From a virus, in IMG/VR virus record IMGVR_UViG_3300010430_000547, positions 1 through 20,521 of that record: DNA of 20,521 nt, one strand, 5' to 3'. The first letter of the stretch is position 1, and each line of letters starts with the position of its first letter. Below, piece by piece: positions 1 to 18,939 of this stretch. The notes under the pieces are model-generated. The model had not been told where the DNA came from, did not search any database, and worked only from the letters and a program-made list of their open reading frames with translations. The position numbers and the translations under genes were made by a program.

Positions 1-74
1 CAGGGCATAGCTTAGCCTGGTAAAGCGCGTGTTTTGGGTACACGAGAGCGAAGGTTCGAATCCTTCTGTCCTGA
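1..74 (+). tRNA. tRNA-Pro (anticodon TGG)
   Basis: A complete cloverleaf can be drawn. Acceptor CAGGGCA (1-7) pairs with TGTCCTG (67-73), the anticodon stem CGTGT/ACACG holds loop TTTGGGT with anticodon TGG (codon CCA), and the T-arm is GAAGG-TTCGAAT-CCTTC. The C1-G72 pair and A73 match bacterial proline tRNA identity. The CCA tail is not fully encoded: the discriminator A is followed by CATAG. The gene begins at the first base of the window, so upstream context is missing. Confidence 0.93.
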
Positions 75-79
75 CATAG

Positions 80-139
80 AATGCAAAGGACGTCTAAATA
101 GTAGCATAGGCATAAAACTATGAGGAAGTCCTTTGCATT
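80..139 (+). promoter_or_regulatory. Hairpin over the first homing endonuclease start, with late-promoter-like box
   Basis: A perfect 12-bp inverted repeat (80-91 with 128-139) encloses a smaller CATAG/CTATG hairpin (105-109 with 118-122). The TTG start codon (133-135) lies inside the 3' arm, and the SD-like GAGGAA (122-127) sits between the inner and outer stems. A box TCTAAATA (93-100), one base from the T4 late consensus TATAAATA, ends 33 nt before the start codon. The same architecture with different but complementary arms precedes the second endonuclease gene. In T4, the I-TevI mRNA is known to have its translation signals hidden in a hairpin on early transcripts; a similar role here is inference. 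Confidence 0.7.
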
Positions 140-777
140 ACACGATCTACAAAATAACCCATCGGTCAAGTGGCAAAATCTACATTGGTAAACACCAGAC
201 GAATAATCTTGACGACGGCTATATGGGTTCAGGGAAAATTCTGAAACGTGCCGTTGAAAAGTACGGTATTGAAGAATTTGAAAAGGAAATTCTATTCGAC
301 CTTAATTCCGAGGAAGAAATGAATACTATGGAAGCCGAGCTTGTGACTGAGGAATTTTGTAGTCGCAATGATACATATAATCTCTGTCCAGGAGGACACG
401 GTGGTTGGGGATACGTGAACTCTAACGGTAAATCCGTAAACTACATAACCAAAGACAACAGCTTGGAATTGGCAAAGTTGTCTAAAGATCGAAAAGAATT
501 CTTGTCTAAGACTGATCCGGAGTGGAAAAGGAAATATTCTGAAAACCATTCTAAGGCACAAGTCAAAAGACAGAAAACACATGGGAATGGATTTAAGAAC
601 AAATCCCATAGTGATGAATGGAAACTGAGACAGTCGGAAGTTATGAAACTACGACAGTCGGGAAAGAACAATTCTCAGTTTGGTTCCATGTGGATAACAA
701 ACGGAACTGAGAATAAAAAGATTTCTAAGCTTGACATTATACCGGAAGGATGGTATAAAGGTCGAAAGATGAAATAA
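133..777 (+). CDS. GIY-YIG homing endonuclease (free-standing)
   Basis: This 214-residue protein has an N-terminal GIY-YIG nuclease domain: the YTIY strand at residues 3-6, then KIYIGK at 15-20, then the EAELVTEEF segment near 68-76 carrying the expected acidic residue. The C-terminal half is basic, with a NUMOD3-like segment (GSMWITNG) typical of DNA-binding tails of homing endonucleases. Such enzymes cut an allele lacking the gene so that repair copies the gene in. It starts with TTG, chosen because the aligned paralogue at 1329 starts at the same place with ATG. The gene sits between tRNA-Pro and tRNA-Ala and stops two bases before tRNA-Ala. It is not inside an intron or another gene. Family assignment is firm; the DNA target is unknown. 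Confidence 0.9.
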   Translation: MHYTIYKITHRSSGKIYIGKHQTNNLDDGYMGSGKILKRAVEKYGIEEFEKEILFDLNSEEEMNTMEAELVTEEFCSRNDTYNLCPGGHGGWGYVNSNGKSVNYITKDNSLELAKLSKDRKEFLSKTDPEWKRKYSENHSKAQVKRQKTHGNGFKNKSHSDEWKLRQSEVMKLRQSGKNNSQFGSMWITNGTENKKISKLDIIPEGWYKGRKMK

Positions 778-779
778 TT

Positions 780-854
780 GGGGCACGTCTATGGGGTAGC
801 GGGCGATCCTTGCAAGATTGCCGTCATCGGGTTCGATTCCCGAGTGCTCCACCA
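780..854 (+). tRNA. tRNA-Ala (anticodon TGC)
   Basis: Acceptor GGGGCAC (780-786) pairs with GTGCTCC (844-850) and includes the G3:U70 wobble that defines alanine tRNAs. The anticodon stem CGATC/GATTG holds loop CTTGCAA, anticodon TGC. The T-arm is TCGGG-TTCGATT-CCCGA. A73 and CCA are encoded. The D-arm pairs poorly and its loop looks short, so the D region is atypical. Confidence 0.9.
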
Positions 855-870
855 ATTTAGGAGTTTGTTA

Positions 871-900
871 ATGTTTAGTGAAAAACGAGTTGGTATTTAA
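871..900 (+). CDS. Possible 9-codon minigene between tRNAs
   Basis: An AGGAG Shine-Dalgarno sequence (859-863) lies 7 bases before ATG 871, which opens a nine-residue frame (MFSEKRVGI) ending in TAA. There is no homology to support it, and so short a frame can arise by chance. It is listed because the ribosome-binding site is good and it fills most of the gap between tRNA-Ala and tRNA-Trp. Confidence 0.15.
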   Translation: MFSEKRVGI

Positions 901-907
901 GTAATAT

Positions 908-980
908 GCCGGTCTAGCTCATGGGGTAGAGCAGCGGTCTCCAAAACCGCGTGTGTAGGGTTCGAGTCCCTAGTCCGGTG
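908..980 (+). tRNA. tRNA-Trp (anticodon CCA)
   Basis: The anticodon stem GCGGT/ACCGC is perfect around loop CTCCAAA (anticodon CCA). The D-stem is GCTC/GAGC and the T-arm TAGGG-TTCGAGT-CCCTA. The acceptor GCCGGTC/GTCCGGT has one T:T mismatch and a G:T terminal pair. The discriminator is G, as in bacterial tRNA-Trp. Only GCA follows, so the full CCA is not encoded. Confidence 0.92.
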
Positions 981-990
981 CAAACAATAT

Positions 991-1076
991 GCGGGCGTGG
1001 CGTAATTGGTAGCCGCGTTAGATTTAGGTTCTAATGTCCTTGTGACGTGTGGGTTCGAGTCCCTCCGCCCGTACCA
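991..1076 (+). tRNA. tRNA-Leu (anticodon TAG), class II
   Basis: Acceptor GCGGGCG/CGCCCGT closes a class II tRNA. The anticodon stem TTAGA/TCTAA holds loop TTTAGGT (anticodon TAG), and a long variable arm with a GTC/GAC stem follows. A73 and CCA are encoded. This is the only leucine tRNA in the window with the long variable arm usual for bacteria. The T-stem has one T:T mismatch. Confidence 0.92.
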
Positions 1077-1199
1077 AGAATCGTCCAGTCTGCGAAGGAC
1101 GTTAAGCGCAAAGCAGGGGAGCAAGGATGATGGAAGTTGGCCCGAAAGGGTAGCATTGGTACTTGCGGCGCTATCTGAGATTGGGTACGATAGCAATTT
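1077..1199 (+). other. Untranslated spacer with three small hairpins
   Basis: No convincing gene is seen between tRNA-Leu and tRNA-Gly. The stretch holds CGTCC/GGACG (1082-1101), CCC-GAAA-GGG with a GNRA tetraloop (1141-1150) and GCTATC/GATAGC (1170-1194). It could be a small stable RNA, a decayed tRNA or simply precursor spacer cut by tRNA processing. The overlapping long frame here runs straight through tRNA-Gly and is not credible as protein. Confidence 0.3.
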
Positions 1200-1270
1200 G
1201 CGGGCATGGCGTAAGGGGAACGTACCTGGTTGCCAGCCAGGAGTCGAGGGTTCGAATCCCTCTGTCCGCG
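1200..1270 (+). tRNA. tRNA-Gly (anticodon GCC)
   Basis: Acceptor GCGGGCA/TGTCCGC, anticodon stem CCTGG/CCAGG around TTGCCAG (anticodon GCC) and T-arm GAGGG-TTCGAAT-CCCTC are all well formed. Discriminator position 73 reads G, whereas bacterial glycine tRNAs usually have U73. Only CA follows, so the CCA end is incomplete. The second endonuclease leader begins immediately afterwards. Confidence 0.92.
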
Positions 1271-1275
1271 CATAG

Positions 1276-1335
1276 AGTGCATGAAATGTCTAAATAGCAT
1301 CATAGGATTAAGACTATGAGGATATTTCATGCACT
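1276..1335 (+). promoter_or_regulatory. Hairpin over the second homing endonuclease start, with late-promoter-like box
   Basis: A 12-bp inverted repeat (1276-1287 with 1324-1335) encloses CATAG/CTATG (1301-1305 with 1314-1318). ATG 1329 lies in the 3' arm, SD-like GAGGA is at 1318-1322, and TCTAAATA (1289-1296) again ends 33 nt before the start codon. Compared with the first copy, six of the twelve stem positions differ and all six are compensated on the other arm. That is direct covariation evidence for a selected RNA fold. Confidence 0.75.
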
Positions 1336-1976
1336 ACATCATATATCAAATTACCAATACAGTGAACGGTAAGATTTACATCGGCAAACACCAGACTGAT
1401 AATTTGGACGACGGATATATGGGCTCCGGGAAGGTTCTCATCTATGCCATCGAAAAGTACGGCATAGATAAATTCGAAAAGAAAATTCTCCACGATTTCC
1501 CTTCTGAATCAGAAATGAATCATGCGGAAGCTGAGTTGGTGACAGAAGAATTCTGTAAACGCGACGACACATACAACCTATGTCCAGGAGGACAAGGTGG
1601 CTTCGGATACATCCAAAATCATCCTGATCGGGATAGGTGGAACAAAAAAGGAAGAAAGGCTACCGACACATATTTGAAAGAGAAATATGGAGTCGATAAT
1701 CCTTCCCAAATACCAGAGATTAGATCGAAGCATAAGGCTTCTTTGGCCCGACGGAGGTTATCAGGAGAGAAATTTGGTGATCCTCAGGGATTTAAAGGAA
1801 AATCTCACACCGACGAGTGGAAATCCAAACAATCCGAGATTATGAAGCGCAAGCAGTCTGGAGATTCCAACTCACAGTTCGGTTCTATGTGGATCACTAA
1901 TGGAGTTGAAAATAAAAAGATAAACCGTCTTGACAAAATACCGGAAGGATGGTATAAAGGACGAAAGATGAAATAA
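1329..1976 (+). CDS. GIY-YIG homing endonuclease, paralogue of the first
   Basis: This 215-residue protein aligns along its whole length with the product at 133-777. It shares the MHY start, KIYIGK at 15-20, a YMGSGK segment, the EAELVTEEFC block, a CPGG motif and an almost identical C-terminus ending KGRKMK. The middle (about residues 100-150) differs most, as expected if it helps set target preference. It is a GIY-YIG endonuclease domain followed by a basic NUMOD3-like tail. It begins with ATG in the 3' arm of the leader hairpin and stops three bases before tRNA-Gly(TCC). The pair probably arose by transposition or duplication within the tRNA island. Target site and activity are unknown. 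Confidence 0.9.
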   Translation: MHYIIYQITNTVNGKIYIGKHQTDNLDDGYMGSGKVLIYAIEKYGIDKFEKKILHDFPSESEMNHAEAELVTEEFCKRDDTYNLCPGGQGGFGYIQNHPDRDRWNKKGRKATDTYLKEKYGVDNPSQIPEIRSKHKASLARRRLSGEKFGDPQGFKGKSHTDEWKSKQSEIMKRKQSGDSNSQFGSMWITNGVENKKINRLDKIPEGWYKGRKMK

Positions 1977-1979
1977 CAT

Positions 1980-2053
1980 GCGGCGCTGGCGTAAGGGTAG
2001 CGTAAGTGATTTCCAATCATTTGGTACGGGTTCGAATCCCGTGCGCCGCTCCA
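1980..2053 (+). tRNA. tRNA-Gly (anticodon TCC)
   Basis: The perfect acceptor GCGGCGC/GCGCCGC, the anticodon loop TTTCCAA (anticodon TCC) on stem AGTGA/TCATT and the T-arm ACGGG-TTCGAAT-CCCGT are clear. U73, the usual glycine discriminator, is followed by an encoded CCA. Confidence 0.94.
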
Positions 2054-2060
2054 AACACAT

Positions 2061-2138
2061 GCCCGAGCGATGTAATTGGCATAGCATATCACCCTCAGAA
2101 GGTGAGTTTTGCGGGTTCGAGTCCCGCCTTGGGTACCA
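2061..2138 (+). tRNA. tRNA with leucine anticodon CAG but short variable loop
   Basis: Acceptor GCCCGAG/CTTGGGT, D-stem ATGT/GCAT, anticodon stem TCACC/GGTGA around CTCAGAA and T-arm GCGGG-TTCGAGT-CCCGC form a standard class I cloverleaf with A73 and encoded CCA. The anticodon read from the loop is CAG (leucine CTG). The variable region is only GTTTT, whereas bacterial leucine tRNAs have a long variable arm. Position 8 is C instead of the nearly universal U. The charged amino acid is therefore uncertain. Confidence 0.85.
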
Positions 2139-2155
2139 AACATAATGGATACAGT

Positions 2156-2365
2156 ATGAAAAAAGACCTTGAAATTCCGTCTATTGAAATCCTAAAGACC
2201 TTTGTTCTTGCGGAAGACACCTACGTTGACCTCTCGGTTATCAACGGTGTAACAAAAACGCAAGTTTTCAAGAAAGTTTCCGGCACAAAGAACACTTTTG
2301 ATCTTGACAAAGAATATCCAGGTGATAAATTCGAGCAAGTTAAAGAGGAGTTCGAATGTTCGTAA
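2156..2365 (+). CDS. Small hypothetical protein inside the tRNA cluster
   Basis: This 69-residue acidic and basic mixed protein (start MKKDLEIP) has no recognised domain. ATG 2156 was chosen because longer versions of the frame would run back through the upstream tRNA gene. Upstream signal is weak (GGATAC at about -11). Its last bases overlap the start of the next gene, which suggests translational coupling. The sequence contains a valine/threonine-rich middle that could fold as a small beta structure, but nothing can be said about function. Confidence 0.6.
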   Translation: MKKDLEIPSIEILKTFVLAEDTYVDLSVINGVTKTQVFKKVSGTKNTFDLDKEYPGDKFEQVKEEFECS

Positions 2366-2793
2366 GAAAATCCCTACTTGAGAATATGCGGAAGGAAAAT
2401 CTTGCACTGCAAGGTATCGTGAACCATTTTAGAGGAAAAATTCTGGCGCGGGATAGAACAATTGACCGTCTTAGGGCAAAACTTATCAGTATGGAAAGTG
2501 AAAATACAGACATGGCACAATATACAAGTTATTCGTACGGAAACCTGTTGAATGGTAATGACAAATCTCTGTTTGAAATCATTCGAAAAAGTGATGGCAA
2601 ATTTGTTGTTGGACCTGGATTTGAAACGTATGAGGAGGCACATAAAGTGGCTTCTGATCTTGCTCGGTCCAATGTGAATGAAGTGTTCTTGATTTTGGCA
2701 CCGATTGCTGAAATCAAGGCAGATGTTCCTATCGTTTCGGAACAGAAATTTGAACCAGTCGATGTCGAGTCCAATAAGGTTCTCAACGGCTAA
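2356..2793 (+). CDS. Hypothetical protein with N-terminal coiled coil
   Basis: This 145-residue protein begins inside the end of the preceding gene, with an AGAGGAG site about 7 bases upstream of ATG 2356. Residues 1-50 are rich in Leu, Arg, Lys and Glu with heptad-like spacing and probably form a coiled coil. Residues 60-120 contain a segment (YGNLL, then FETYEEAHKVASDL) that could be a small alpha/beta fold. No family is recognised. The gene ends in tandem stops TAA TAG shortly before the next tRNA, so its mRNA tail would be trimmed by tRNA processing. Confidence 0.7.
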   Translation: MFVRKSLLENMRKENLALQGIVNHFRGKILARDRTIDRLRAKLISMESENTDMAQYTSYSYGNLLNGNDKSLFEIIRKSDGKFVVGPGFETYEEAHKVASDLARSNVNEVFLILAPIAEIKADVPIVSEQKFEPVDVESNKVLNG

Positions 2794-2801
2794 TAGAATA
2801 T

Positions 2802-2879
2802 GCCCTGGCGACGTAAATGGAATAGCGTACTTCCCTCAAAAGGAAGGTTTTGTGGGTTCGAGTCCCATCCGGGGTACCA
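2802..2879 (+). tRNA. tRNA with leucine anticodon CAA but short variable loop
   Basis: Acceptor GCCCTGG/CCGGGGT, D-stem ACGT/GCGT, anticodon stem CTTCC/GGAAG around CTCAAAA (anticodon CAA, leucine TTG) and T-arm GTGGG-TTCGAGT-CCCAT are well formed, with A73 and encoded CCA. Like the tRNA at 2061 it has the five-base variable loop GTTTT and CG at positions 8-9, so the two share an ancestor. It does not look like a normal class II leucine tRNA. Confidence 0.85.
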
Positions 2880-2899
2880 ATTCAACTACAACCACGAAA

Positions 2900-3184
2900 G
2901 AGTAGGCCTTAGGGCGAAATGGTAGTGGAAGAACGTGTTGAATTTTTAGGATGAAGTCAGCAACTCTAGGCTCAATGGGCCATAACTAAGTTCAGAGGAC
3001 TGCATATCATCTAGTAGGAAAGACTTGACGGCTGATCATCCTGTAATCAAAGGTTGGCTTGTCGGAACTACGGATGGCAGTGTAATTAAACAAGGGTGGT
3101 TACTGCAACCAAGCTAAATTACAATAGTGAGAGGGGCGAGTCGTCCGACCCACCCAGAAACCTTCAGGAAGGTAAACCCCTCAC
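2900..3184 (+). ncRNA. Candidate structured RNA in the tRNA cluster
   Basis: This ~285-nt stretch has no credible reading frame but holds nested pairings. GGATGA-AG-TCAGC (2949-2961) pairs with GCTGATCATCC (3031-3041), leaving an AG bulge. TGTAATT (3081-3087) pairs with AATTACA (3117-3123) around hairpin TGGTT/AACCA (3097-3111). GTGA-GA-GGGG (3127-3136) pairs with CCCCTCAC (3177-3184) around ACCTT-CAGG-AAGGT (3160-3173). The 5' end (2906-2925) resembles a leucine-type tRNA D-arm (GGCGAAATGGTAG), but no matching 3' half is found. It could be a stable RNA like the T4 cluster RNAs, an intron remnant or a decayed tRNA. Confidence 0.45.
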
Positions 3185-3186
3185 TT

Positions 3187-3261
3187 GCGGCTGTAGCATT
3201 AAGGCAATGCAGCGGCTTCTAACACCGACGAAAGCAGGTTCAATTCCTGTCAGCCGCACCA
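3187..3261 (+). tRNA. tRNA with CTA (amber) anticodon, putative suppressor
   Basis: Acceptor GCGGCTG (3187-3193) pairs perfectly with CAGCCGC (3251-3257). The D-stem is GCAT/ATGC, the T-arm GCAGG-TTCAATT-CCTGT, the variable loop CGAAA, and A73 plus CCA are encoded. With canonical spacing the anticodon arm is GCGGC-TTCTAAC-ACCGA. This puts CTA at positions 34-36 after U33 and before A37, which would read UAG. Only the three central stem pairs form: 27:43 is G:A and 31:39 is C:A. No shifted reading gives a better stem. It may be a real amber suppressor, a tRNA with a distorted anticodon arm, or a decaying gene. Confidence 0.7.
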
Positions 3262-3324
3262 ACACTAAACGCTAAAAATGGAGAGTAAAATGGGTGATTA
3301 TACCTAGACACGCGCGCCACCTGC

Positions 3325-3362
3325 CTAATATTGATCTTAACCAAACATCAAATCAATATTAG
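3325..3362 (+). promoter_or_regulatory. Hairpin ending at the ribosome-binding site of the next gene
   Basis: An 11-bp inverted repeat, CTAATATTGAT (3325-3335) with ATCAATATTAG (3352-3362), ends on the first two bases of the AGGAG Shine-Dalgarno (3361-3365) of the gene at 3373. The position suggests control of ribosome access or mRNA end protection. No T-run follows, so it is not a classical terminator. Confidence 0.5.
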
Positions 3363-3372
3363 GAGAATCAAA

Positions 3373-3813
3373 ATGAGTGTAGAACTTAAAATTAAAGCAA
3401 AACATCTGGCACTGGAACCTGCTATCATCCGTAAGGAAGAACAGCGAATCCGAAAGCAGATGAAATGGATGCGGGAAAACCTGCAGATCAACCACTGTAA
3501 AATCACCCTTTGGTCGTCAAAGCCTACCAATGAGCATGAAACGACCTACCGCAAACTTAATGACCAGCTGGTCAGTTTGCAAATGCATCGTGGAAAGGGC
3601 AGCAACTTGAGAATGGAAGCAAGAGCCACATACCTGGCAAGAGCTTTTATCGCAGGTAAACCCTACAAATCGGTTGAACAAAAAATCAAAGAGCCCGCCT
3701 TGAGCTATTACCTCATCAAACGCATTGCGAAAATGGTGACTAAATACGACAAGAGAAAGAGGCGTTCGGAAGAAGCGAACATCAAACTGGTCCAAGAGTG
3801 GATCAACATGTAA
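3373..3813 (+). CDS. Conserved phage hypothetical protein
   Basis: This 146-residue, strongly basic, mostly helical protein starts at ATG 3373 behind AGGAGAATCAAA; a longer in-frame start would lie in the leader hairpin. The segment from about 80 to 105 (RMEARATYLARAFIAGKPYKSVEQK) resembles a recurring small protein seen in many tailed phages, in which a short motif of the form EAR-hydrophobic-A-GxPY-VEQ is conserved. Its function is not known. It lies alone between tRNA genes and ends 7 bases before tRNA-Thr. Confidence 0.75.
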   Translation: MSVELKIKAKHLALEPAIIRKEEQRIRKQMKWMRENLQINHCKITLWSSKPTNEHETTYRKLNDQLVSLQMHRGKGSNLRMEARATYLARAFIAGKPYKSVEQKIKEPALSYYLIKRIAKMVTKYDKRKRRSEEANIKLVQEWINM

Positions 3814-3820
3814 CAAAAGT

Positions 3821-3895
3821 GCCGTTTTAGCTGAGTTGGTTTAGCACCGATCTTGTAAGTCGGGGACGGGGGTTCGAATCCCTCAAGCGGCACCA
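3821..3895 (+). tRNA. tRNA-Thr (anticodon TGT)
   Basis: Acceptor GCCGTTT/AAGCGGC, anticodon stem CCGAT/GTCGG around CTTGTAA (anticodon TGT, codon ACA) and T-arm GGGGG-TTCGAAT-CCCTC form a standard tRNA with A73 and encoded CCA. Confidence 0.95.
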
Positions 3896-3922
3896 GAAAT
3901 TGGAAGGCAACTTCCTACGAAT

Positions 3923-3999
3923 TGCGGAGTGGAGCAGTGGTCAGCTTGCCGGTCTCATAAGCCGGAGGTCGTAGGTTCGAATCCTACCTCTCGCAACCA
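3923..3999 (+). tRNA. Initiator-like tRNA-Met (anticodon CAT)
   Basis: The sequence tracks bacterial tRNA-fMet closely: TGGAGCAG in the D-arm, loop CTCATAA, GGTCG before the T-stem and a GCAACCA end. The D-stem carries the A11:U24 pair typical of initiators. The anticodon stem is CCGGT/GCCGG, so two of the three hallmark G:C pairs are present and the third is U:G. The 5' base T faces A72, a weak pair instead of the E. coli C:A mismatch. The 3' acceptor strand CTCTCGC carries one extra base (a bulged T) relative to the 5' strand. CCA is encoded. Confidence 0.88.
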
Positions 4000-9734: not shown

Positions 9735-9772
9735 CAAGATGGGTCCAGCTAGTTAAGTTGGACCTAACTTAA
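9731..9772 (+). promoter_or_regulatory. Leader of the CCA-adding enzyme gene: -35-like box and two competing hairpins
   Basis: A consensus -35 TTGACA (9731-9736) is followed after 17 nt by a poor -10 (TAAGTT), so a promoter is only possible. Hairpin A pairs GGTCCA (9742-9747) with TGGACC (9759-9764). Hairpin B pairs TTAAGTT (9753-9759) with AACTTAA (9766-9772) and ends at AGGAG (9773-9777), the ribosome-binding site. The two share bases and cannot form together, so a switch is possible. Confidence 0.4.
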
Positions 9773-9783
9773 AGGAGAAAGAC

Positions 9784-11037
9784 ATGAAAGTATATTGGGT
9801 AGGCGGCGCCGTACGTGATCTGGAAATGGGTCGTGTCCCTAAAGATGAAGATTTTGTGGTCGTCGGCGCAACACAAAAGGAAATGTTGGACCTGGGATTT
9901 GAACAGGTTGGTGCAGACTTTCCAGTCTTTCTCCATCCTGTTACTCGTGATGAATACGCTCTGGCACGGAAAGAGAAATCCACTGGCAAGGGCTATCACG
10001 ATTTTGAAGCTGAATTCGGTCCTGACGTAACTCTGATGGAAGACCTGATGCGCCGCGACCTGACGATGAACGCAATGGCGATGGACGAAACCGGAGAAGT
10101 GTTCGATCCGTTCGGGGGACGTCTTGATATAAAGGCTAAACTCCTTCGGGCAGTATCTCCTGCATTCAAAGATGATCCTGTTCGCGTCCTGCGTCTGGCA
10201 CGGTTTCGGGCTCAACTTGGTCCGAACTGGAAAGTTGCATCCGCGACTAAGGAAATGTGTCTCAAAATGGTGGCAGAAGGGATGCTGAATTCTCTGACCA
10301 AAGAACGCGTCTCCCAAGAGCTTATGAAAGCACTGGATAGCGATCATCCGCGAGTGTTCTTTGATACGCTGGATCAACTCGGCGCTCTGGAGACGGTGTT
10401 TCCTGTAGTCCACAAGATGAAATCCGTTGAGGAAAATCTGAAATGGCATCCTGAAGGCAACACCTATGAACACACAATGTTGGTTCTGACCGCTGCCAAG
10501 AAAGCTGGTGCAAATCAAACCCAAATGTTCGCTGCACTGACCCACGACTTCGGTAAGACCTTAACTCCGGTTGAGGAATATCCTGCGCACAAAATGCACG
10601 AGGTTCGTGGTGTTAAACTGGTTCGGAAATTCGCAAATGAAATGCGAGTGACCACATCCATGCGGAAAACTGCCGAAGTTGTGTGCCGTTATCACATGCA
10701 CCTCCACAAAATGGACGTCATGCGGGCAAAAACGTTCGTTAAGATGTTTGATGGCATGGGTGCCTGGAATAATCCAGCTGTTGTCGGCGACCTGTTTGTA
10801 GTTGGACTTGCTGATATGCGCGGCAAGCTTGGTAATGAGGATGCACCTACGTGCAACCGTACACGCCTCCTGGATACATTCCGCGCAGCAAAGGAGGTCA
10901 AGTTCATGGAAGTTGTCCAGAGCATGAAAGGTGTTGGCAAGTTTGATTACCAGAAGTGGTCCGGTGAGCGTAAAAAGCAAGTCATGTTCCAGGCACGGAC
11001 TAAAGCTGTTGCAGAGGTTCTAAATGATGGAAGATAA
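9784..11037 (+). CDS. cca: CCA-adding enzyme (tRNA nucleotidyltransferase) with HD domain
   Basis: This 417-residue protein is a full-length bacterial class II CCA-adding enzyme of the E. coli type (412 residues). The nucleotidyltransferase head has GGAVRD (7-12), catalytic DED (21-23), FPVFLHP (46-52) and RRDLTMNA (90-97). The neck region has DPVRVLR. A C-terminal HD domain has KWHPEGNTYEH (220-230) and HD at 254-255, which in E. coli gives phosphatase and phosphodiesterase activities. It builds or repairs the 3' CCA of tRNAs, and three tRNA genes in this window lack a fully encoded CCA. AAAGGAG precedes ATG 9784. The next gene overlaps its end. Confidence 0.96.
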   Translation: MKVYWVGGAVRDLEMGRVPKDEDFVVVGATQKEMLDLGFEQVGADFPVFLHPVTRDEYALARKEKSTGKGYHDFEAEFGPDVTLMEDLMRRDLTMNAMAMDETGEVFDPFGGRLDIKAKLLRAVSPAFKDDPVRVLRLARFRAQLGPNWKVASATKEMCLKMVAEGMLNSLTKERVSQELMKALDSDHPRVFFDTLDQLGALETVFPVVHKMKSVEENLKWHPEGNTYEHTMLVLTAAKKAGANQTQMFAALTHDFGKTLTPVEEYPAHKMHEVRGVKLVRKFANEMRVTTSMRKTAEVVCRYHMHLHKMDVMRAKTFVKMFDGMGAWNNPAVVGDLFVVGLADMRGKLGNEDAPTCNRTRLLDTFRAAKEVKFMEVVQSMKGVGKFDYQKWSGERKKQVMFQARTKAVAEVLNDGR

Positions 11038-12276: not shown

Positions 12277-13278
12277 ATGGGTTGCTGGAACGGAACTTGC
12301 GGACTTACAAATCTGCCTATTATTGCGGGTGATAAAATGTACGTTTTTCCAATTGCAGAAAACTACTCGGACAGTTTTTGCTACTCGACGGCATTCTATC
12401 GTCCGAGTGTGGTACCATTCGTCGCCGACTACAACGATTATGGTGCCGGTGAAAATTGCACTGGACCTGCCCTTGATCTTTTGATTGAAGGTATCAAAGG
12501 TTCATTGGTCGAAATGGAAGTCGGCGAAAACAAGTACCATGACATCGAAATTAAGCGCGAGGACTTCGATGTGGATAAGTTCTTTGAAGCTTGCCACGAG
12601 GGCCGACTGGAATATCTCAATCCAATGCGTGGTTGGAAAGGCCAACCACAAACCAAAAAGATGTATTTCACTATGATCCGTAAGGATGTTGTGGATCGTC
12701 TGTGGTCCGAGTGGAAATTCGACATGTGGAAAGGCTCTGACTGCGATTATGTTCCTGAAGGTTTTGAGACTGACCAGTATTACATCAAAAATGTAACCTA
12801 CGAGCGCCTGGCTGAATTGCTTCCCGAATATATGGAAGCACGTTATGAAAAATTCCAGAAAAACGTTAAGGTGGCAAAGGAAACCGATGACGAACAGGCT
12901 AAGATTGCTGTCTACCAACTCTTGCAAGGCTACTTCTTCCAGTCATATAAAGACCGCGACCACATTCTGTCAGATAAGTTTTCGCATATCTTTGGTTCCG
13001 GATATGCCGACGGTGGATTCCACAACTTTATTCCCGATCTATCTACCGAAATCGTTGCGCTCTATATTTCAGGCAAAAAAGAGGAAGCAATTGAACTCCT
13101 TCGCCAATGTCTTGTCGGTTACATGGTAAATTCGTACATGGAAGCCGTTCGCAAAATTTGGACGCCGCCGATGCACCAAGGTTCCCAGAGCCAAGAATTT
13201 TCTGAATATAAACTCTTGAATTCGATCATGAATGATATTATGGTTGAGAAAGAAAAGGAATATGACTGGGAGGAATAA
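12277..13278 (+). CDS. Conserved phage protein (MGCWNGTCG family)
   Basis: This 333-residue protein starts MGCWNGTCGLTNLPI, an N-terminus repeated in many phage proteins of unknown function. Residues 1-110 are beta-rich. Residues 175-220 are a charged helical region (YERLAELLPEYMEARYEKF). The rest is mixed. The two N-terminal cysteines and the CW motif may bind a metal. AAGGA precedes ATG 12277. It is the last gene before a new late promoter and the NAD+ island. Confidence 0.8.
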   Translation: MGCWNGTCGLTNLPIIAGDKMYVFPIAENYSDSFCYSTAFYRPSVVPFVADYNDYGAGENCTGPALDLLIEGIKGSLVEMEVGENKYHDIEIKREDFDVDKFFEACHEGRLEYLNPMRGWKGQPQTKKMYFTMIRKDVVDRLWSEWKFDMWKGSDCDYVPEGFETDQYYIKNVTYERLAELLPEYMEARYEKFQKNVKVAKETDDEQAKIAVYQLLQGYFFQSYKDRDHILSDKFSHIFGSGYADGGFHNFIPDLSTEIVALYISGKKEEAIELLRQCLVGYMVNSYMEAVRKIWTPPMHQGSQSQEFSEYKLLNSIMNDIMVEKEKEYDWEE

Positions 13279-13284
13279 TCCCAG

Positions 13285-13295
13285 TCACATAAATA
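13285..13295 (+). promoter_or_regulatory. T4-type late promoter box before pnuC
   Basis: TCACATAAATA is identical to the boxes at 4036 and (minus strand) 5044 and ends 29 nt before the pnuC start. If transcription begins 6-7 nt further on, the leader would start almost exactly at the SD hairpin at 13306. The NAD+ genes could then be transcribed late as well as by read-through from the early run. Confidence 0.72.
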
Positions 13296-13305
13296 CCGTA
13301 TAAGA

Positions 13306-13322
13306 GCTAAAGGAGGTTTAGC
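13306..13322 (+). promoter_or_regulatory. SD-in-loop hairpin, copy 1 (before pnuC)
   Basis: GCTAAA-GGAGG-TTTAGC forms a 6-bp stem that exposes the Shine-Dalgarno core in a five-base loop, two bases before ATG 13324 counting from the stem end. Exact copies lie at 14936 and 16771, so all three precede genes of NAD+ salvage. Confidence 0.8.
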
Positions 13323-13323
13323 A

Positions 13324-13932
13324 ATGTTTGAAATGGTAATTCAATATTTTTCTGGGTTCTGGGGCACGATTGAACTCCTCGGAACCATCGCCAGCCTGAT
13401 CTGTGTGTATCTCGCTGCGAAGCACAATCAATGGACCTGGTTTTTCGGTGCCATTGGTGTGGCACTATTCGGAGCTTTGTTCTTCGAATTCAAACTGTAT
13501 TCCGACGCCGGTCTCCAAATTCTGTTCTTCCTACCCATGCAAGTTTGGGGTTATTTTTACTGGAAGAAGCTGGCCGAATCGTCTGAGAATGACAGCATCA
13601 CACTCTCCACTGATCCTTACAAATTCCTGAGTATCCTATTTGCCATCGCTGGACTAACTGCGATTAACGGCTGGCTCATGCTCAATTACACGGATGCAAG
13701 TTTTCCGTATGCCGACGCGTTCACCACGTGGATGAGTGTCTTTGCTCAAATCCTGATGATCCGTAAATACTGGCAGTCGTGGATTTTGTGGGTTGTCATG
13801 GACGTCTTTGCCATCTATATCTACTTCCAGAAAGAACTCGTGGTTGTGTCGGGACTTTACGTTCTGTTCCTGATCATGGCTAGCGCAGGTCTGGTAAAGT
13901 GGTACAAAGACTGGAAAGGTCAAACGGTATGA
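13324..13932 (+). CDS. pnuC: Nicotinamide riboside transporter PnuC
   Basis: This 202-residue membrane protein matches the PnuC family of facilitators that bring nicotinamide riboside into the cytoplasm. It has about seven hydrophobic segments. The N-terminal helix (IELLGTIASLICVYLAA) is followed by HNQWTWFFGAIGV, and a late block TTWMSVFAQILMIRKYWQSW then WVVMDVFAIYIYF matches the family's conserved core. NadR downstream supplies the kinase that traps the imported riboside. The gene starts behind the first SD hairpin and overlaps nadR (GTATGA). It would sit in the host inner membrane. Confidence 0.94.
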   Translation: MFEMVIQYFSGFWGTIELLGTIASLICVYLAAKHNQWTWFFGAIGVALFGALFFEFKLYSDAGLQILFFLPMQVWGYFYWKKLAESSENDSITLSTDPYKFLSILFAIAGLTAINGWLMLNYTDASFPYADAFTTWMSVFAQILMIRKYWQSWILWVVMDVFAIYIYFQKELVVVSGLYVLFLIMASAGLVKWYKDWKGQTV

Positions 13933-14951
13933 CTGAAAAAGTAGGAGCAACAATCGGAAAGTTTATGCCCTTTCATAAGGGGCATAAACACATGATCGAC
14001 TCGGCACTGGCCGTCTGTGATGTGTTTTACATCATTGTGTCTGGAAGGGAAGATGATGCAATCCCTCTTTCCCACCGAGTCCTGTGGCTTGAAGCTGAAT
14101 ATGACAGCCAAGATTTGGTCACTGTCATCAAGCACGAGGACAACATTCCCGTAACGACCGTAGACAAAGACGGAACCTGCACAGACCCCGAGTTTTGGAA
14201 AAAGTGGGAAGCCGAATTCAATCGAATTCTTCCTGAGAAAATCACCCATTTTGTTTCTTCGGATATGTACGGTAAAAAGGTCGCTGAGGTTTTGAACTGT
14301 GAATGGCTTCCTATTGACCCAGGCCGAGAGTATATTCCCATTTCGGGTACTCAATGTCGATATGACATGGAAGCTAACTGGAACATGCTCACCGAAGACG
14401 TCCGACGCGATTTCGTGACCACAGTAGCAATTGTCGGTCCGGAGTCCACAGGAAAAACGACTTTGGCAAGATCGATGACCCCGGAAGCCACGTATATTCC
14501 TGAATATGGTCGGCATCTTTCTGAGGTTAAGCCGGAGCTGGAACTAAAAGACTTCCAAACAATCACTTTGATCCAAGATCGAATTGTTGAGAATGCAAGA
14601 TGGGACGCGGAAAAGCCACTAATTGTCACCGACACCGAGGCTTACACCACATATCTGTTTTCCAAGTTTTACACCGGAGAAGGAGATATTTGGTCTAAAT
14701 CTATCGCGGAACATATTCAACAGTTTGACCTTTACGTCTTGCTTGCGCCAACTGTACCTTGGGTTCAAGATGGAACTCGGGTGGTAGACACGGAAGATCA
14801 GCGCCAATGGTTTTTCGATGAAATGAAAAAGTTTCTTGACAAAATCAAGGCAAACTATATTGTGGTTGATGATGAGGACTTTGCCGAACGGCGACGCCAA
14901 GCATACCAAGCTATCACCAAAACACAAAAACAAAAGCTAAAGGAGGTTTAG
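13929..14951 (+). CDS. nadR: NadR-type bifunctional NMN adenylyltransferase / ribosylnicotinamide kinase
   Basis: This 340-residue protein lacks the N-terminal DNA-binding domain of E. coli NadR, as H. influenzae NadR does, so it is an enzyme rather than a repressor. The NMNAT half has GKFMPFHKGHKHMI with HKGH at 16-19 and ISGTQCR (138-144). The kinase half has a Walker A GPESTGKTT (170-178) followed by EYGRHLSE and DTEAYTT, typical of ribosylnicotinamide kinase. It turns imported riboside into NMN and then NAD+. ATG 13929 overlaps the pnuC stop; the longer frame lacks a good site. It ends in TAG, which lies inside the second SD hairpin. Confidence 0.95.
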   Translation: MTEKVGATIGKFMPFHKGHKHMIDSALAVCDVFYIIVSGREDDAIPLSHRVLWLEAEYDSQDLVTVIKHEDNIPVTTVDKDGTCTDPEFWKKWEAEFNRILPEKITHFVSSDMYGKKVAEVLNCEWLPIDPGREYIPISGTQCRYDMEANWNMLTEDVRRDFVTTVAIVGPESTGKTTLARSMTPEATYIPEYGRHLSEVKPELELKDFQTITLIQDRIVENARWDAEKPLIVTDTEAYTTYLFSKFYTGEGDIWSKSIAEHIQQFDLYVLLAPTVPWVQDGTRVVDTEDQRQWFFDEMKKFLDKIKANYIVVDDEDFAERRRQAYQAITKTQKQKLKEV

Positions 14952-14952
14952 C
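14936..14952 (+). promoter_or_regulatory. SD-in-loop hairpin, copy 2 (before the NMNAT-Nudix gene)
   Basis: This is the same 17-mer, GCTAAAGGAGGTTTAGC. It overlaps the nadR stop (TAG 14949-14951), encodes the end of NadR (KLKEV) and touches ATG 14953. It is preceded by an A-rich stretch similar to the one before copy 3. Confidence 0.85.
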
Positions 14953-16020
14953 ATGAAATATGACACGGCAGTTTTTATCGGACGTTTCCAACCGTTCCAT
15001 TTCGGACACAAATACATCATTGAACAGGCATTGAAAATTGCCGAGGAAGTTATCGTCATTGTCGGTTCGTCCTTTGCAGCGCCGTCTGTTCGAAATCCGT
15101 TTTCGTTTGATGTTCGAAAGGCGATGATCAAGGCTGAATTTCCAGATGATCGGATCAAAGTCGTTGGTCTCATGGACTATCCATACAACGATACCAAGTG
15201 GATTAAAAACGTCAAATCTCTGGTCGAAGAAAATCGGTCAATGTCATCGTTTCCTCAAAGTACGGTTCTTGTAGGATATGGTAAGGATGAAACTTCCTAT
15301 TACTTGAAAATGTTCCCGTCCTGGGACAGCTTTGATCCCGGCGAGGCAAAACTTGTCCCCGGCAAGATGATCAATGCTACCGACATTCGGAATAGGTTTT
15401 ATGCACACAAGACCCACTTTGTTCAGGAAGATTTCATTCCCAGTAAAGCAAGGAACGTACTGAATAGCAGATACTGGTCCATTAATGAGGACGGGTTTGA
15501 CGTGTCATGCTCTGATGTGTGGCAGACTATTCTGGATGAATATGATTTTTCCGTGAAGTATGAAGCCGACTTCGGTGTAAACATCTTCGGCAAAAAGCCA
15601 ATCCACATGACCGTGGATGCCTTGGTGACACAGGCAGATAAAATTCTGTTGATCCGACGCGGCAAACTTCCTGGTAAAAACCTGTGGGCATTGCCTGGTG
15701 GATTTCTTGAGCCTGATGAAACTCTGATGACTGGAATTATCCGAGAGCTACGGGAAGAAACAAAGTTGAAGGTGCCAGAACCAGTACTTCTGGGTTCCAT
15801 CAAGAATTCCAAAACATTCGATTCCGTACGTCGGTCCATTCGTGGCCGAGTTATCACCCACGCAACGCATTTCAAGCTAAATGATGACAAGCCATTGCCC
15901 AAAGTAAAAGGTAGCGATGATGCCTGGCATGCTGAGTGGGTGGACATTGAAAAAGTCGATCCAGAAAAAATGTTCGAGGATCACTACGGAATCATTGACT
16001 ATTTCCTGAATATCGCGTAG
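14953..16020 (+). CDS. nadM: Bifunctional NMN adenylyltransferase / Nudix hydrolase
   Basis: This 355-residue fusion has an archaeal NadM-type NMNAT domain (FIGRFQPFHFGHKY with HFGH at 16-19; INATDIR at 140-146) followed by a Nudix domain. The Nudix box runs from G250 (GFLEPDE) through RELREET (264-270), but the glycine near its end is Lys (EETKL), a mild deviation. The layout matches cyanobacterial Slr0787-type and KVP40-type enzymes. The NMNAT half joins NMN and ATP to NAD+; the Nudix half probably hydrolyses ADP-ribose or a related dinucleotide. It ends in TAG and the following codons stay open and in frame with the next gene's ATG. Confidence 0.95.
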   Translation: MKYDTAVFIGRFQPFHFGHKYIIEQALKIAEEVIVIVGSSFAAPSVRNPFSFDVRKAMIKAEFPDDRIKVVGLMDYPYNDTKWIKNVKSLVEENRSMSSFPQSTVLVGYGKDETSYYLKMFPSWDSFDPGEAKLVPGKMINATDIRNRFYAHKTHFVQEDFIPSKARNVLNSRYWSINEDGFDVSCSDVWQTILDEYDFSVKYEADFGVNIFGKKPIHMTVDALVTQADKILLIRRGKLPGKNLWALPGGFLEPDETLMTGIIRELREETKLKVPEPVLLGSIKNSKTFDSVRRSIRGRVITHATHFKLNDDKPLPKVKGSDDAWHAEWVDIEKVDPEKMFEDHYGIIDYFLNIA

Positions 16021-16029
16021 GATGACATC

Positions 16030-16251
16030 ATGAAATATAACAGAAATACAGGAAATTATCCAAAAATTGACGACAGGGTGGAAATTTGTCATACAAATTC
16101 CACACTAGACACGGAAAAGGGTGTTGTGATTGGATTTGTTGATATGATGGAATATTGTGCCATTGTTTTAATGGATAAGCCAGTAAATCTTAAACATCCT
16201 GGAGTTCGTGGATTAAGTATTCCAGTTTCCTGTCTAAAGCAAGTGTGGTGA
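16030..16251 (+). CDS. Small hypothetical protein, SH3/KOW-like
   Basis: This 73-residue protein looks beta-rich: PKIDDRVEICHTNST, then KGVVIGFVDMMEYCAIVLMD, then VRGLSIPVSCLKQVW. The pattern of a basic strand, a glycine turn and a valine-rich strand resembles small SH3-like barrels. It starts three codons after the TAG of the NMNAT-Nudix gene in the same frame, with ATCATGA before it and no clear Shine-Dalgarno. It may be made partly by reinitiation or by stop readthrough. Function unknown. Confidence 0.7.
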   Translation: MKYNRNTGNYPKIDDRVEICHTNSTLDTEKGVVIGFVDMMEYCAIVLMDKPVNLKHPGVRGLSIPVSCLKQVW

Positions 16252-16255
16252 CATA

Positions 16256-16534
16256 ATGAACAACGAAACGACTTTTACAGATGCACTAGGCCAAACTCCT
16301 GTCCTGGGAGATATTATCTTCTACGGACAAACCGGACGATACTCTGAATTTATGATCGGCAAGGTGGTAAAACTGACGCCAAAGGGAATTCGGATCAAAT
16401 GTCTCAAAGGCGACCGAGGAAGTCAAACTTCCAAATACAAAAATGAATTCCAAGTAAATGATGGATCACATGCCGTCATTATTACCGATGTGCCGGCAGC
16501 AGAAAGGTTTAAAGATGCCGTTTCCACTCTATGA
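16256..16534 (+). CDS. Small hypothetical protein, SH3-like beta
   Basis: This 92-residue protein contains LGDIIFYGQTGRYSEFMIGKVVKLTPKGIRIKC (residues 17-49), a strand-turn-strand pattern with a GKVVKLTPKGIRI unit often seen in SH3-like binding modules. A basic middle (KGDRGSQTSKYKN) could bind nucleic acid. Its end overlaps the start of the next gene by 20 bases. No family is recognised. Its position inside the NAD+ island is the only functional clue. Confidence 0.7.
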   Translation: MNNETTFTDALGQTPVLGDIIFYGQTGRYSEFMIGKVVKLTPKGIRIKCLKGDRGSQTSKYKNEFQVNDGSHAVIITDVPAAERFKDAVSTL

Positions 16535-16775
16535 AGGTCCTGAAAAGGCAGACAAAGGCCAAGAAAACGGTAGCTGCAACCGATCCCAATGTCAAGACGA
16601 TGGCGCCAACTGGTACAATCATGGATCAATGGCATGGTACTGCGCCAGATGCCGACATGATATCGAATTTGATTCTTTCAATTTCCAAGACTGGAAAAGA
16701 AATTTTGAACCGCAATACGGACATCCAATGTTCGAAACCCGAGCAATGATTGATGCTCGGACAAACAAAAGCTAA
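16515..16775 (+). CDS. Conserved phage zinc-binding small protein
   Basis: This 86-residue protein (start MPFPLYEGPEKADKGQENGS) has paired cysteines, CNRSQC at about 21-26 and CARC at about 43-46, which probably form a zinc site, and ends with YGHPMFETRAMIDART. This arrangement recurs in tailed-phage proteins of unknown role. ATG 16515 was chosen because the family-like sequence starts there and AAGG lies upstream. A competing frame starting at 16531 lacks these features and is rejected. Its stop codon TAA lies inside the third SD hairpin, so it is tightly linked to nadV. Confidence 0.8.
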   Translation: MPFPLYEGPEKADKGQENGSCNRSQCQDDGANWYNHGSMAWYCARCRHDIEFDSFNFQDWKRNFEPQYGHPMFETRAMIDARTNKS

Positions 16776-16787
16776 AGGAGGTTTAGC
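16771..16787 (+). promoter_or_regulatory. SD-in-loop hairpin, copy 3 (before nadV)
   Basis: GCTAAAGGAGGTTTAGC again, with the stop codon of the preceding gene (TAA 16773-16775) in its 5' arm and ATG 16790 two bases after it. The flanks AAACAAAA and CATGAAA resemble those of copy 2, so about 25 nt are shared. Confidence 0.85.
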
Positions 16788-16789
16788 AC

Positions 16790-18187
16790 ATGAAAAATCT
16801 AATTAATCTAATCATTTCCACCGACTCCTACAAAATGAGCCAATACCTGCAATACCCAAAGGATACTGCATACATCAGTTCCTATATTGAGGCTCGTGGT
16901 GGAGAATATTCTACTACCGTATTCTTTGGCCTGCAAGCATTTATTTCAGAATATTTGCTGGAGCCAATCACTATGGCGGACATCGATTTTGCCGAGGACA
17001 TTATCCTTGCGCACGGTGAGCCATTCAATCGTGAAGGCTGGGAATACATCGTCCGGGAGCACGGTGGTAAGCTGCCACTGCGTATCCAGGCAGTTCCCGA
17101 GGGTAGTGTCATGCCAACGCGAATTGCACAGGTCCAGGTCGTTAACACTGATCCAAAGTGCTTCTGGCTGACCAGCTACATTGAAACTGCTTTGCTCCGT
17201 GCAATCTGGTATCCTTCGACTGTTGCCACCGTTTCTCGCCAGATGAAAAAGTACATTGCACTTGGTTTGGAAAAGACATCCGATATTCCTGTTGAGGATC
17301 AAATCGGCTTCAAGCTGCACGACTTCGGTGCGCGTGGCGCAACATCGCAGGAAGCCGCTATGCTCGGTGGTATGGCTCACTTGGTGAACTTCCTTGGAAC
17401 GGACACCGCCGAAGCGTTGATTGGTGCAAAATATCTGTACGGTGAAACCATCGCTGGCTTCTCCATTCCTGCATCTGAACACTCCACGATTACTTCCTGG
17501 GGCAAAGATGGTGAGATTGAAGCCTTCGAAAACATGGTCGAAACTTTCGGAGGTGAAGGCAAAATTTACGCCTGTGTCTCCGACTCCTACAACATCTACA
17601 AAGCGGTTGATGAACTGTGGCCGTCCATCAAGGATAAAATCATCGAAAAGGGCGGAACTCTTGTGGTTCGTCCTGACTCCGGTGATCCACTGACTGTTCC
17701 GATTGAAGTCATTGAACGTCTTATGGACAAATTCGGATACACCGTGAACTCGAAAGGTTTCCGTGTTCTTCCGGAATACATTCGAGTTATTCAGGGTGAC
17801 GGAATTAACGCACAATCTCTGCCGAAAATCATTGACAACCTTATTGAGTCTGGTCTATCATTGGATAACATCGCATTCGGTATGGGTGGTGGACTTCTCC
17901 AGAACGTCAACCGCGATACCCTAAAATACGCGATGAAAGCAAGCGCACGTATGGACACTAATGGTGTTTGGCACGATGTTTACAAAGACCCGGTACACGG
18001 AGGTAAAACCTCCAAGAAAGGTCGTCTTGCTGTTCAACACTATCCACGTGGCGCATGGGTGACCATGCCTGAGGATATCCTTGATAGCCGTTCTGAGCAA
18101 AATAACATGCTCCAGGATGTGTTTGTAAACGGCGATCTTGTCCGAATTGAGAAATTCTCGGCCATCCGTAAGCGCGCCGAACTGTAA
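16790..18187 (+). CDS. nadV: Nicotinamide phosphoribosyltransferase (NAMPT/NadV)
   Basis: This 465-residue protein is a complete NAMPT. Landmarks are TDSYKMSQY (11-19), matching the substrate-stacking Tyr region; HDFGARGATSQEAA (177-190) in the nicotinamide pocket; PASEHSTITSWGKDGE (227-242) with the catalytic His at 231; VRPDSGDP (293-300) binding PRPP; and FGMGGGLLQ (363-371) in the phosphate loop. It joins nicotinamide and PRPP into NMN, which either NMNAT here can turn into NAD+. NAMPT plus NMNAT is the pair known in phages to rebuild NAD+ after defence systems cleave it. It sits behind the third SD hairpin. Confidence 0.97.
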   Translation: MKNLINLIISTDSYKMSQYLQYPKDTAYISSYIEARGGEYSTTVFFGLQAFISEYLLEPITMADIDFAEDIILAHGEPFNREGWEYIVREHGGKLPLRIQAVPEGSVMPTRIAQVQVVNTDPKCFWLTSYIETALLRAIWYPSTVATVSRQMKKYIALGLEKTSDIPVEDQIGFKLHDFGARGATSQEAAMLGGMAHLVNFLGTDTAEALIGAKYLYGETIAGFSIPASEHSTITSWGKDGEIEAFENMVETFGGEGKIYACVSDSYNIYKAVDELWPSIKDKIIEKGGTLVVRPDSGDPLTVPIEVIERLMDKFGYTVNSKGFRVLPEYIRVIQGDGINAQSLPKIIDNLIESGLSLDNIAFGMGGGLLQNVNRDTLKYAMKASARMDTNGVWHDVYKDPVHGGKTSKKGRLAVQHYPRGAWVTMPEDILDSRSEQNNMLQDVFVNGDLVRIEKFSAIRKRAEL

Positions 18188-18227: not shown

Positions 18228-18464
18228 ATGTTTTTGACAATTTTGGGACTATTCACTCTTTGGATGATTGTCGGCACTTCAATCGTATTTGCCATATCCA
18301 TGTACGAAAAGGACACCATCTATATCCGCGACTTGCCCATTATGCTGTTTCTGACGGTAATCTGGCCAGTTGCAATAGTCATCTGGTCTATTGAATTGCT
18401 GGAAAAACGGCAATTTGGAGATCGGGTTATGTTTGACTTCTCGGAGAAATCTGATGAAGATTGA
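18228..18464 (+). CDS. Small membrane protein
   Basis: This 78-residue protein has two hydrophobic segments, at about 2-23 (FLTILGLFTLWMIVGTSIVFAI) and 36-57 (LPIMLFLTVIWPVAIVIWSI), joined by a short polar loop and followed by a charged tail. It starts behind AAAGGA and overlaps the macro-domain gene. No family is recognised; lying between nadV and the macro gene it could be a membrane partner of that set, but this is speculation. Confidence 0.75.
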   Translation: MFLTILGLFTLWMIVGTSIVFAISMYEKDTIYIRDLPIMLFLTVIWPVAIVIWSIELLEKRQFGDRVMFDFSEKSDED

Positions 18465-18939
18465 TTATCAAATCGGAAATATGTTTGAAAATTACCATGA
18501 GCCTATAATTTTTCTTGCCCATGGTTGTAATGCTAAGGGAGTTATGGGCAGCGGAGTTGCGGCTGAGGTCCGTGATCGATATCCGTGGGCATATAGCAAA
18601 TATCGCAAAAAGTTTCAGGAATCAGGACTTGCGCCTGGGAGTGTGGTGGAAGCATCCAAATATGTCGATGACCGAACCATTTATGTGTTCAACTGCATCA
18701 CGCAAAATTTGTACGGTCGTGACGGAAGACGTTATGCCAATTATGGTGCAATTCAAAAATGTATCAGACAGATTGACTTCCTAGTCACAACTAAGTCTGC
18801 CTTTGACACTATTAAGCCAGAGGTTAGATTTCCTATGATTGGTGCCTCACTAGGAGGAGCTGATTGGAACATTATTTCCAAGATAATCGAAAGGGAATCC
18901 GAAAACTTTCGCCCTGTTGTTTACGACATGACACCATAA
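18454..18939 (+). CDS. Macro-domain protein (ADP-ribose-1''-phosphate phosphatase type)
   Basis: This 161-residue protein is a stand-alone macro domain close in layout to the Poa1p type: FLAHGCNAKGVMGSGVA (20-36) binds ADP-ribose, followed by VEASKYVDDRTIYVFNCITQ, GRDGRRYANY, and FPMIGASLGGADWNII near residues 130-145. The family removes or hydrolyses ADP-ribose derivatives such as ADP-ribose 1''-phosphate or ADP-ribosylated groups. ATG 18454 was chosen because the fold begins there; the longer frame starts inside the preceding gene without a ribosome site. Clustering with NAD+ synthesis suggests recycling of ADP-ribose products. Confidence 0.92.
   Translation: MKIDYQIGNMFENYHEPIIFLAHGCNAKGVMGSGVAAEVRDRYPWAYSKYRKKFQESGLAPGSVVEASKYVDDRTIYVFNCITQNLYGRDGRRYANYGAIQKCIRQIDFLVTTKSAFDTIKPEVRFPMIGASLGGADWNIISKIIERESENFRPVVYDMTP

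Follow-up and report, generated by a model that had tools for sequence, protein, structure and literature searches.

The virus record IMGVR_UViG_3300010430_000547 is a 20.5-kb fragment, analysed here over its entire length of 20,521 nucleotides (the window). It carries, on the plus strand, three exact copies of a 17-nucleotide (nt) hairpin, GCTAAAGGAGGTTTAGC, which holds the Shine-Dalgarno sequence (SD) in front of genes for NAD+ salvage. This 17-mer is best read as the version, in this phage, of an RNA element conserved among NAD+ salvage genes, which acts in cis from the 5' untranslated region to control translation. It is close to certain that this RNA feature of NAD+ genes is real, acts in cis and is under selection. 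A shared translational control element had been suggested by the original prediction, made from the window sequence: comparative data strongly support it, except that the conserved unit is not the 17-mer.

Draining of NAD+ is a widespread defence against phages, to which many phages respond with nadV and NMNAT genes (NARP2). As far as our literature search shows, the control of these phage genes was previously undescribed; since the element is found at start sites in phages available in culture (Phaeobacter phage MD18, Roseobacter phage DSS3P8, Synechococcus phage B23), this control can be tested directly.

Structure and gene association of the element

In a first comparison, the 75 nt located 5' of nadV were read in 71 related viral loci. 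Most of them feature a hairpin at the same place, formed by a different stem: examples are AGTAAA-GGAGA-TTTACT, AATAGA-GGAGT-TCTATT and TTTAAA-GGAAC-TTTAAA. NMNAT-Nudix starts show the same SD hairpin, again with differing stems. The general element is composed of two hairpins. P2, found directly before the AUG, is a 5–8 bp hairpin which places the SD at the start codon within a GGANN loop (in many cases GGAUU, GGAAC or GGAAU); its stem varies by genome, with pairing kept. P1 is often present about 4–14 nt 5' of P2, from which a short spacer separates it, and features an ANNGA loop, mostly AUAGA (CCTAGAG-ATAGA-CTCTAGG is an example), the other loops being AGAGA, AGUGA, AUGGA, AAAGA and ACAGA. 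Fold, SD-holding loop, position and, often, P1 are kept across genomes, stem sequence is not: conserved unpaired loops at a conserved position, on free stems, are typical of RNAs that a ligand or a protein recognises. At the nadV and NMNAT starts of one locus (L071), and at the NMNAT start of another (L058), the SD hairpin itself has an AUAGA loop (GGAG-ATAGA-CTCC-ATG), suggesting that one type of hairpin may stand in for the other and that a common partner may read both.

Three other arrangements were considered and rejected. Loop-loop pairing is not indicated, as the varying positions in the ANNGA and GGANN loops, compared by eye, do not change together; a fixed pairing of the GGA loop with a CC in P1 is seen in some members only. 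A DNA operator for a repressor is unlikely, since the arms vary and covary around a conserved centre, the reverse of what an operator shows.

Both helices covary strongly. In a first alignment of 32 sequences, none of them from the window, two-sided changes are found in 13 of 13 pairs, with a score of 0.935 against 0.20 for shuffled controls, a result partly circular because rows were picked for having both hairpins. A second alignment (59 matches) lies almost wholly outside the training set and was fitted to the model, which favours structure: P2 is 96.7% paired, five of its six pairs show two-sided changes, and the score is 0.724, against 0.145 for the control and less than 0.1 when partners are slid by one column. 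Like riboswitches in general, the element thus keeps a covarying structure in the 5' leaders of genes linked by function.

A covariance model built without the window, R1, was run on it with no filters. The three copies take the first three ranks (Table 1), and the next match scores 9.6 bits. Over 85 loci R1 matches 73 places: 42 at nadV, 24 at NMNAT-Nudix and 7 at others, which include leader open reading frames (ORFs) and a nadV remnant described below. Its matches over 45 whole phage records are nearly all at NAD loci. With its 45 positions, R1 is too insensitive for whole bacterial genomes, and nadV and NMNAT loci were therefore fetched by protein. Alignment and model may serve as the seed of a new RNA family.

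Association with gene starts was evaluated by a simple gene caller on all loci, duplicates removed, where P2 was defined by at least five Watson-Crick pairs and a GGANN pentaloop. P2 is present at 60 of 130 nadV, 48 of 102 NMNAT-Nudix (108 of 232 for the two combined) and 2 of 4 pnuC starts, against 12 of 1896 for other genes, in a set that contains 80 loci chosen by a P1-plus-AAAGGA pattern. Permutation of the flanks, which keeps A-rich and T-rich sides, predicts 0.7, 0.3, 0.01 and 2.8, respectively. Before the pattern-chosen loci were added, the hairpin was found at 44 of 64 nadV starts vs 44 of 713 others, the latter mostly NMNAT-Nudix. The 12 other genes with a P2 are 9 small ORFs of the type heading NMNAT operons, a nadD in a bacterial NAD cluster, one gene fetched for its 17-mer and one located about 300 nt 5' of nadV. 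For the small leader ORFs, NMNAT-Nudix follows in all 10 loci checked. P1 with an ANNGA loop, pattern-chosen loci left out, accompanies 40 of 93 NAD genes bearing P2, but only 2 of 852 others.

NMNAT-Nudix operons that follow the element can open with a gene for a small protein without known function, from a family of either 118–119 aa (L126, L127, L135, L147, L160, L176) or 108 aa (L027, L033, L130).

A gene-blind scan with the pattern GAGATAGACTC..AAAGGA gave at least 80 readable loci. Among the matches listed, 37 complete elements were present by our own count, 32 of them at NAD genes: 22 directly before nadV or NMNAT-Nudix, and 10 before leader ORFs followed by NMNAT-Nudix. The other five are one sequence type, found before small genes in a stretch with no NAD gene. 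Loci L137, L153, L166, L192 and L196 show an AUAGA P1-like hairpin and an SD hairpin before ORFs of 66–79 aa, with no NAD gene in the stretch; they are either a chance occurrence within a single phage type or a case of the element outside NAD genes.

Strong sigma-70-like promoters end 6–24 nt 5' of P1 in 27 of 71 cases, where 1.9 are expected, indicating that P1 probably opens the transcript and the element forms the 5' end of the mRNA. Hairpins at this position protect RNA, and upstream genes of the window stop within the element; both facts would suit a constitutive device, in which the hairpins only fix mRNA stability or translation level, or enforce coupling with the upstream gene, without any sensing. 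Such a device leaves unexplained both the fixed loops and the restriction to NAD genes, and is regarded as quite improbable.

The exact 17-mer is rejected as the conserved unit, as each genome has its own stem. A scan of 2.9 million viral contigs (IMG/VR) finds it in eight records, and most matches elsewhere are in-frame coding (peptide AKGGLA) or not at gene starts. Rather than preceding many unrelated genes, it stands before a gene in two other sequence types only. One is a tail-type gene, in two near-identical records. The other is a nadV remnant in a 99-kb contig (L010), directly behind the 17-mer: homology to NadV residues 377–465 resumes 3 nt past the hairpin, and a second nadV is not present in the record. 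The 17-mer, therefore, also stood at nadV in another phage.

Distribution in phages and bacteria

In the cultured phages DSS3P8 and MD18 (Roseobacter group) and B23 (Synechococcus), P1 and P2 are found before both nadV and NMNAT-Nudix. Phages phiAS5 and BUCT-ZZ01 have variants of the element with AAAGA, while the jumbo phages K64-1, pEa_SNUABM_49 and PHA46 feature a GNNGUA variant of P1, and most of their NAD genes have P2. P2 with no clear P1, in some cases of only 4 bp, is seen in Mendera, KP27, RAS14, XacN1 and Vibrio 2.275.O. Carriers thus include Roseobacter, Synechococcus and Aeromonas phages, as well as several proteobacterial lineages: such a spread over diverse hosts is what a universally shared metabolite, as signal, would predict.

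Bacterial contigs with the element come from Microbulbifer thermotolerans, M. rhizosphaerae, metagenome-assembled genomes (MAGs) of Campylobacterales and Chromatiales, and further relatives; the element is absent at nadV of Campylobacter-like small genomes (1.4–1.9 Mb). Some of these contigs may contain mobile islands. The M. thermotolerans locus adjoins a recombinase-like ORF; in the Campylobacterales MAG, the element-bearing nadV is near an argB-like ORF. An alphaproteobacterial MAG contig (L266) carries a NAD cluster with three elements, two of them in a near-identical duplicated stretch. The cluster includes a nadD-like gene, nadV, a CinA-type gene, nadE and an ORF read by us as NAD kinase-like, to which Pfam gave no match.

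A GGA loop over the SD might be read by host CsrA/RsmA, which favours GGA in hairpin loops overlapping the SD. CsrA (PF02599) is present in Microbulbifer. It was not found in the element-bearing G044, G045 and G715, which as MAGs may be incomplete, or in one Rhodobacterales genome; moreover, Roseobacter and cyanobacterial phages carry the element, and neither the AUAGA hairpin nor the NAD specificity is explained. This reading appears very improbable. CsrA/RsmA and T4 RegB sites are both known to show GGA or GGAG in hairpin loops at the SD: several carriers of the element, however, have no detected CsrA, and RegB requires GGAG, unlike the many loops here that read GGAUU, GGAAC or GGAAU.

The three copies in the window

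Features of the window are reported in Table 1. Besides the three exact copies no further 17-mer is present, even with up to three mismatches, and shuffled sequences predict 0.00 exact matches. The genes behind the copies, named pnuC, NMNAT-Nudix and nadV in the original prediction, are borne out by Pfam domain matches. Between the final G of GGAGG and the ATG lie 7, 6 and 8 nt for copies 1, 2 and 3. The isolated 17-mer folds as predicted, into a 6-bp stem with a GGAGG loop (-4.0 kcal/mol); with flanks, the minimum free energy structure keeps this hairpin at copies 1 and 3 and loses it at copy 2.

Table 1. Hairpins and NAD+ genes of the window
Feature	Position	Strand	Basis and remarks
P1-like hairpin 5' of copy 1, GACUGGGA-GGAAUAA-UCCCAGUC	13264..13286	+	Sequence; aligned to P1 by R1
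P2 copy 1, SD hairpin GCUAAA-GGAGG-UUUAGC before pnuC	13306..13322	+	Exact match; R1 19.0 bits, rank 2 in window
pnuC, nicotinamide riboside/NMN transporter	13324..13932	+	PF04973, E 1.6e-48
NadR-like NMN adenylyltransferase + P-loop kinase	13929..14951	+	PF01467, PF13521
P2 copy 2, SD hairpin before NMNAT-Nudix	14936..14952	+	Exact match; R1 16.5 bits (P2 half only), rank 3
NMNAT-Nudix (NadM-type NMN adenylyltransferase + Nudix; CTP_transf_like + NUDIX)	14953..16020	+	PF01467, PF00293
P1-like hairpin 5' of copy 3, CCGAGCA-AUGAUUGA-UGCUCGG	16739..16760	+	R1 match 16739-16787, 28.5 bits, E 0.0014, rank 1
P2 copy 3, SD hairpin before nadV	16771..16787	+	Exact match; R1; upstream stop TAA 16773-16775 in 5' arm
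nadV, nicotinamide phosphoribosyltransferase (NAMPT/NAPRTase)	16790..18187	+	PF04095, E 1.7e-51; PF18127
NMN, nicotinamide mononucleotide.

A fourth NAD gene, not mentioned in the original prediction, encodes a NadR-like protein. Its start overlaps the pnuC stop (ATGA), so that it also falls behind copy 1, and each NAD gene of the window is either behind a copy or coupled to one that is. As had been noted, upstream ORFs stop inside the hairpin at copies 2 and 3: at copy 2 it is the NadR-like gene, whose TAG (14949-14951) falls within the 3' arm. For copy 1 the stop of the upstream ORF, TAA 13276-13278, is 28 nt before the 17-mer, within the 7-nt loop of another hairpin. Hairpins upstream of copies 1 and 3 are an addition to the first description; the one before copy 3 has an 8-nt loop and is 10 nt from P2, while no P1 was seen upstream of copy 2. 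Since upstream stops lie inside the element at all three copies, ribosomes ending the upstream gene may melt the hairpin and thereby couple the genes.

Copies 2 and 3 share 24 nt, ACAAAAGCTAAAGGAGGTTTAGCA, close to the 25 or so first counted. This stretch and the identity of the three copies could suggest a portable cassette, a mobile repeat copied before NAD genes after the manner of T4-type stem-loop cassettes, as had been proposed; identical or near-identical hairpins also recur within L266 and within BcepSaruman. Yet the stems of nadV and NMNAT-Nudix differ in most genomes (for example L014, L018 and L029) as well as between genomes, stems covary, no shared flanks were seen to move with the hairpin, and the 24 nt are common to window copies 2 and 3 only. 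Local copying may be the reason for identical hairpins inside a genome, but it does not account for the class, for which the cassette is hardly credible.

Mechanism, alternatives and related RNAs

The control element is probably an off-switch. Since the SD is enclosed by P2, the folded hairpin would be expected to slow initiation, and the 30S subunit would have to open it for translation to start. P1 and P2 would together act as sensor: plentiful NAD+ (or NMN, nicotinamide riboside or nicotinamide) would stabilise the fold, reducing translation of transporter, NMNAT and NadV, while drainage of NAD+, for example by a NAD+-depleting host defence, would let P2 open and the genes be translated. 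Feedback by NAD+ status is a natural logic here, because the genes behind the element serve to produce NAD+ or to take up its precursors.

The reading that we find most likely, held with middling confidence, is that NAD+ or a precursor would be sensed by the RNA itself, through direct metabolite binding and with no need of a protein reader, in a small translational riboswitch. Somewhat more tentatively, the element may represent a new class of very small riboswitches responding to NAD+ or a direct precursor, present in tailed phages and proteobacteria, which would allow NAD+-rebuilding enzymes to be made only when NAD+ is short, as when a host defence drains it. Several findings weigh against direct sensing. 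P2 without P1, as in window copy 2, Mendera and KP27, is 17 nt long, too small for an aptamer alone. P1 loops of the window do not fit ANNGA, being enlarged at copies 1 and 3, and P1 is missing at copy 2. Several phages with the same genes have no element: CcrColossus, RHph_X66 and Cp1R7A-A1 show neither P1 nor P2. Finally, NMNAT-Nudix is present in all but one of the element-bearing bacterial genomes searched, the exception being a MAG; with a near-universal NMNAT-Nudix in carriers, a reader protein encoded by the pathway has to be considered.

In this alternative, which we consider less likely, the loops of P1 and P2 would be bound by an enzyme of the pathway, with NMNAT-Nudix as first candidate (or else NadV). 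The enzyme would repress the mRNA that encodes it along with those of its partners, perhaps in a manner dependent on bound NAD+ or ADP-ribose. A pair of hairpins whose loops are fixed and whose stems are free would fit a protein reader, members with only P2 could still be bound, and enzymes repressing their own mRNA are known, such as thymidylate synthase. NMNAT-Nudix is not found, however, in the Campylobacterales MAG G044, possibly incomplete, where nadV has a full element, and no RNA-binding domain was detected in a Pfam scan. The RNA-phage coat-protein hairpin and the T4 RegA and gp43 sites are, likewise, small hairpins in phage mRNAs, placed at SD and start codon; unlike these operators, the element is without a known reader protein, has two hairpins and is common to several NAD genes and to bacteria. 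Binding of NAD+ or NMN would make the element a new class of NAD+ riboswitch; binding by a NAD+ enzyme would add another example of enzymes that repress the mRNA encoding them.

Novelty of an element linked to NAD+ salvage, suggested at the outset, holds within the searches made. No family of Rfam 15 fits the element (cmscan at gathering threshold; for two elements, also at E up to 10). No paper joining riboswitch, nadV and phage was found in a limited literature search, so that a prior description may exist. The NAD salvage and NARP2 papers examined mention no RNA element, and a survey of viral NAD+ systems mentions no riboswitch or untranslated-region element (PMC9503650).

The nearest known architecture is the Guanidine-II (mini-ykkC) riboswitch, with which the element shares two hairpins and a linker. 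Guanidine-II loops are ACGR; those of the element, in contrast, are ANNGA and GGANN, the SD is in the second loop, the genes are others, and Rfam gives no match. In Guanidine-II the two hairpins are short and in tandem, their loops are conserved, the linker varies (7–40 nt), and control is exerted on translation (PMC7544219). The NAD+-II riboswitch (pnuC motif), first found only in Streptococcus before pnuC, senses NAD+, NMN and nicotinamide riboside in a 5' leader that includes the ribosome-binding site (PMC7749635). The element, too, lies in the 5' leader of NAD+ genes and takes in this site, but no NAD+ riboswitch of Rfam matches it, and the NAD+-II fold is a pseudoknotted three-helix one (PMC10085692). 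The NAD+-I riboswitch (nadA motif) has two homologous tandem domains (PMC10702441) and is confined to Acidobacteria (PMC7749635); it is, like the element, a NAD+-linked leader RNA, the element having no Rfam match.

Some other features of the window are worth reporting. Shortly 3' of the NAD+ genes, positions 18454-18939 encode a Macro-domain protein (PF01661, E 5e-6), likely a partner in ADP-ribose handling. A cluster of ten tRNA genes (1-3999) includes, at 3187-3261, a tRNA with anticodon CUA (ARAGORN, labelled tRNA-Pyl), a possible amber suppressor; TAG, which it could suppress, is the stop of the NadR-like gene within copy 2. Two similar ORFs between tRNA genes (133-777 and 1329-1976) resemble, by eye, GIY-YIG homing endonucleases. 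At 9737-9783 a 7-bp hairpin, TTAAGTT-GGACCT-AACTTAA, not matched by R1, precedes an ORF resembling a CCA-adding enzyme (9784-11037): its SD is found just after the hairpin, not in the loop.

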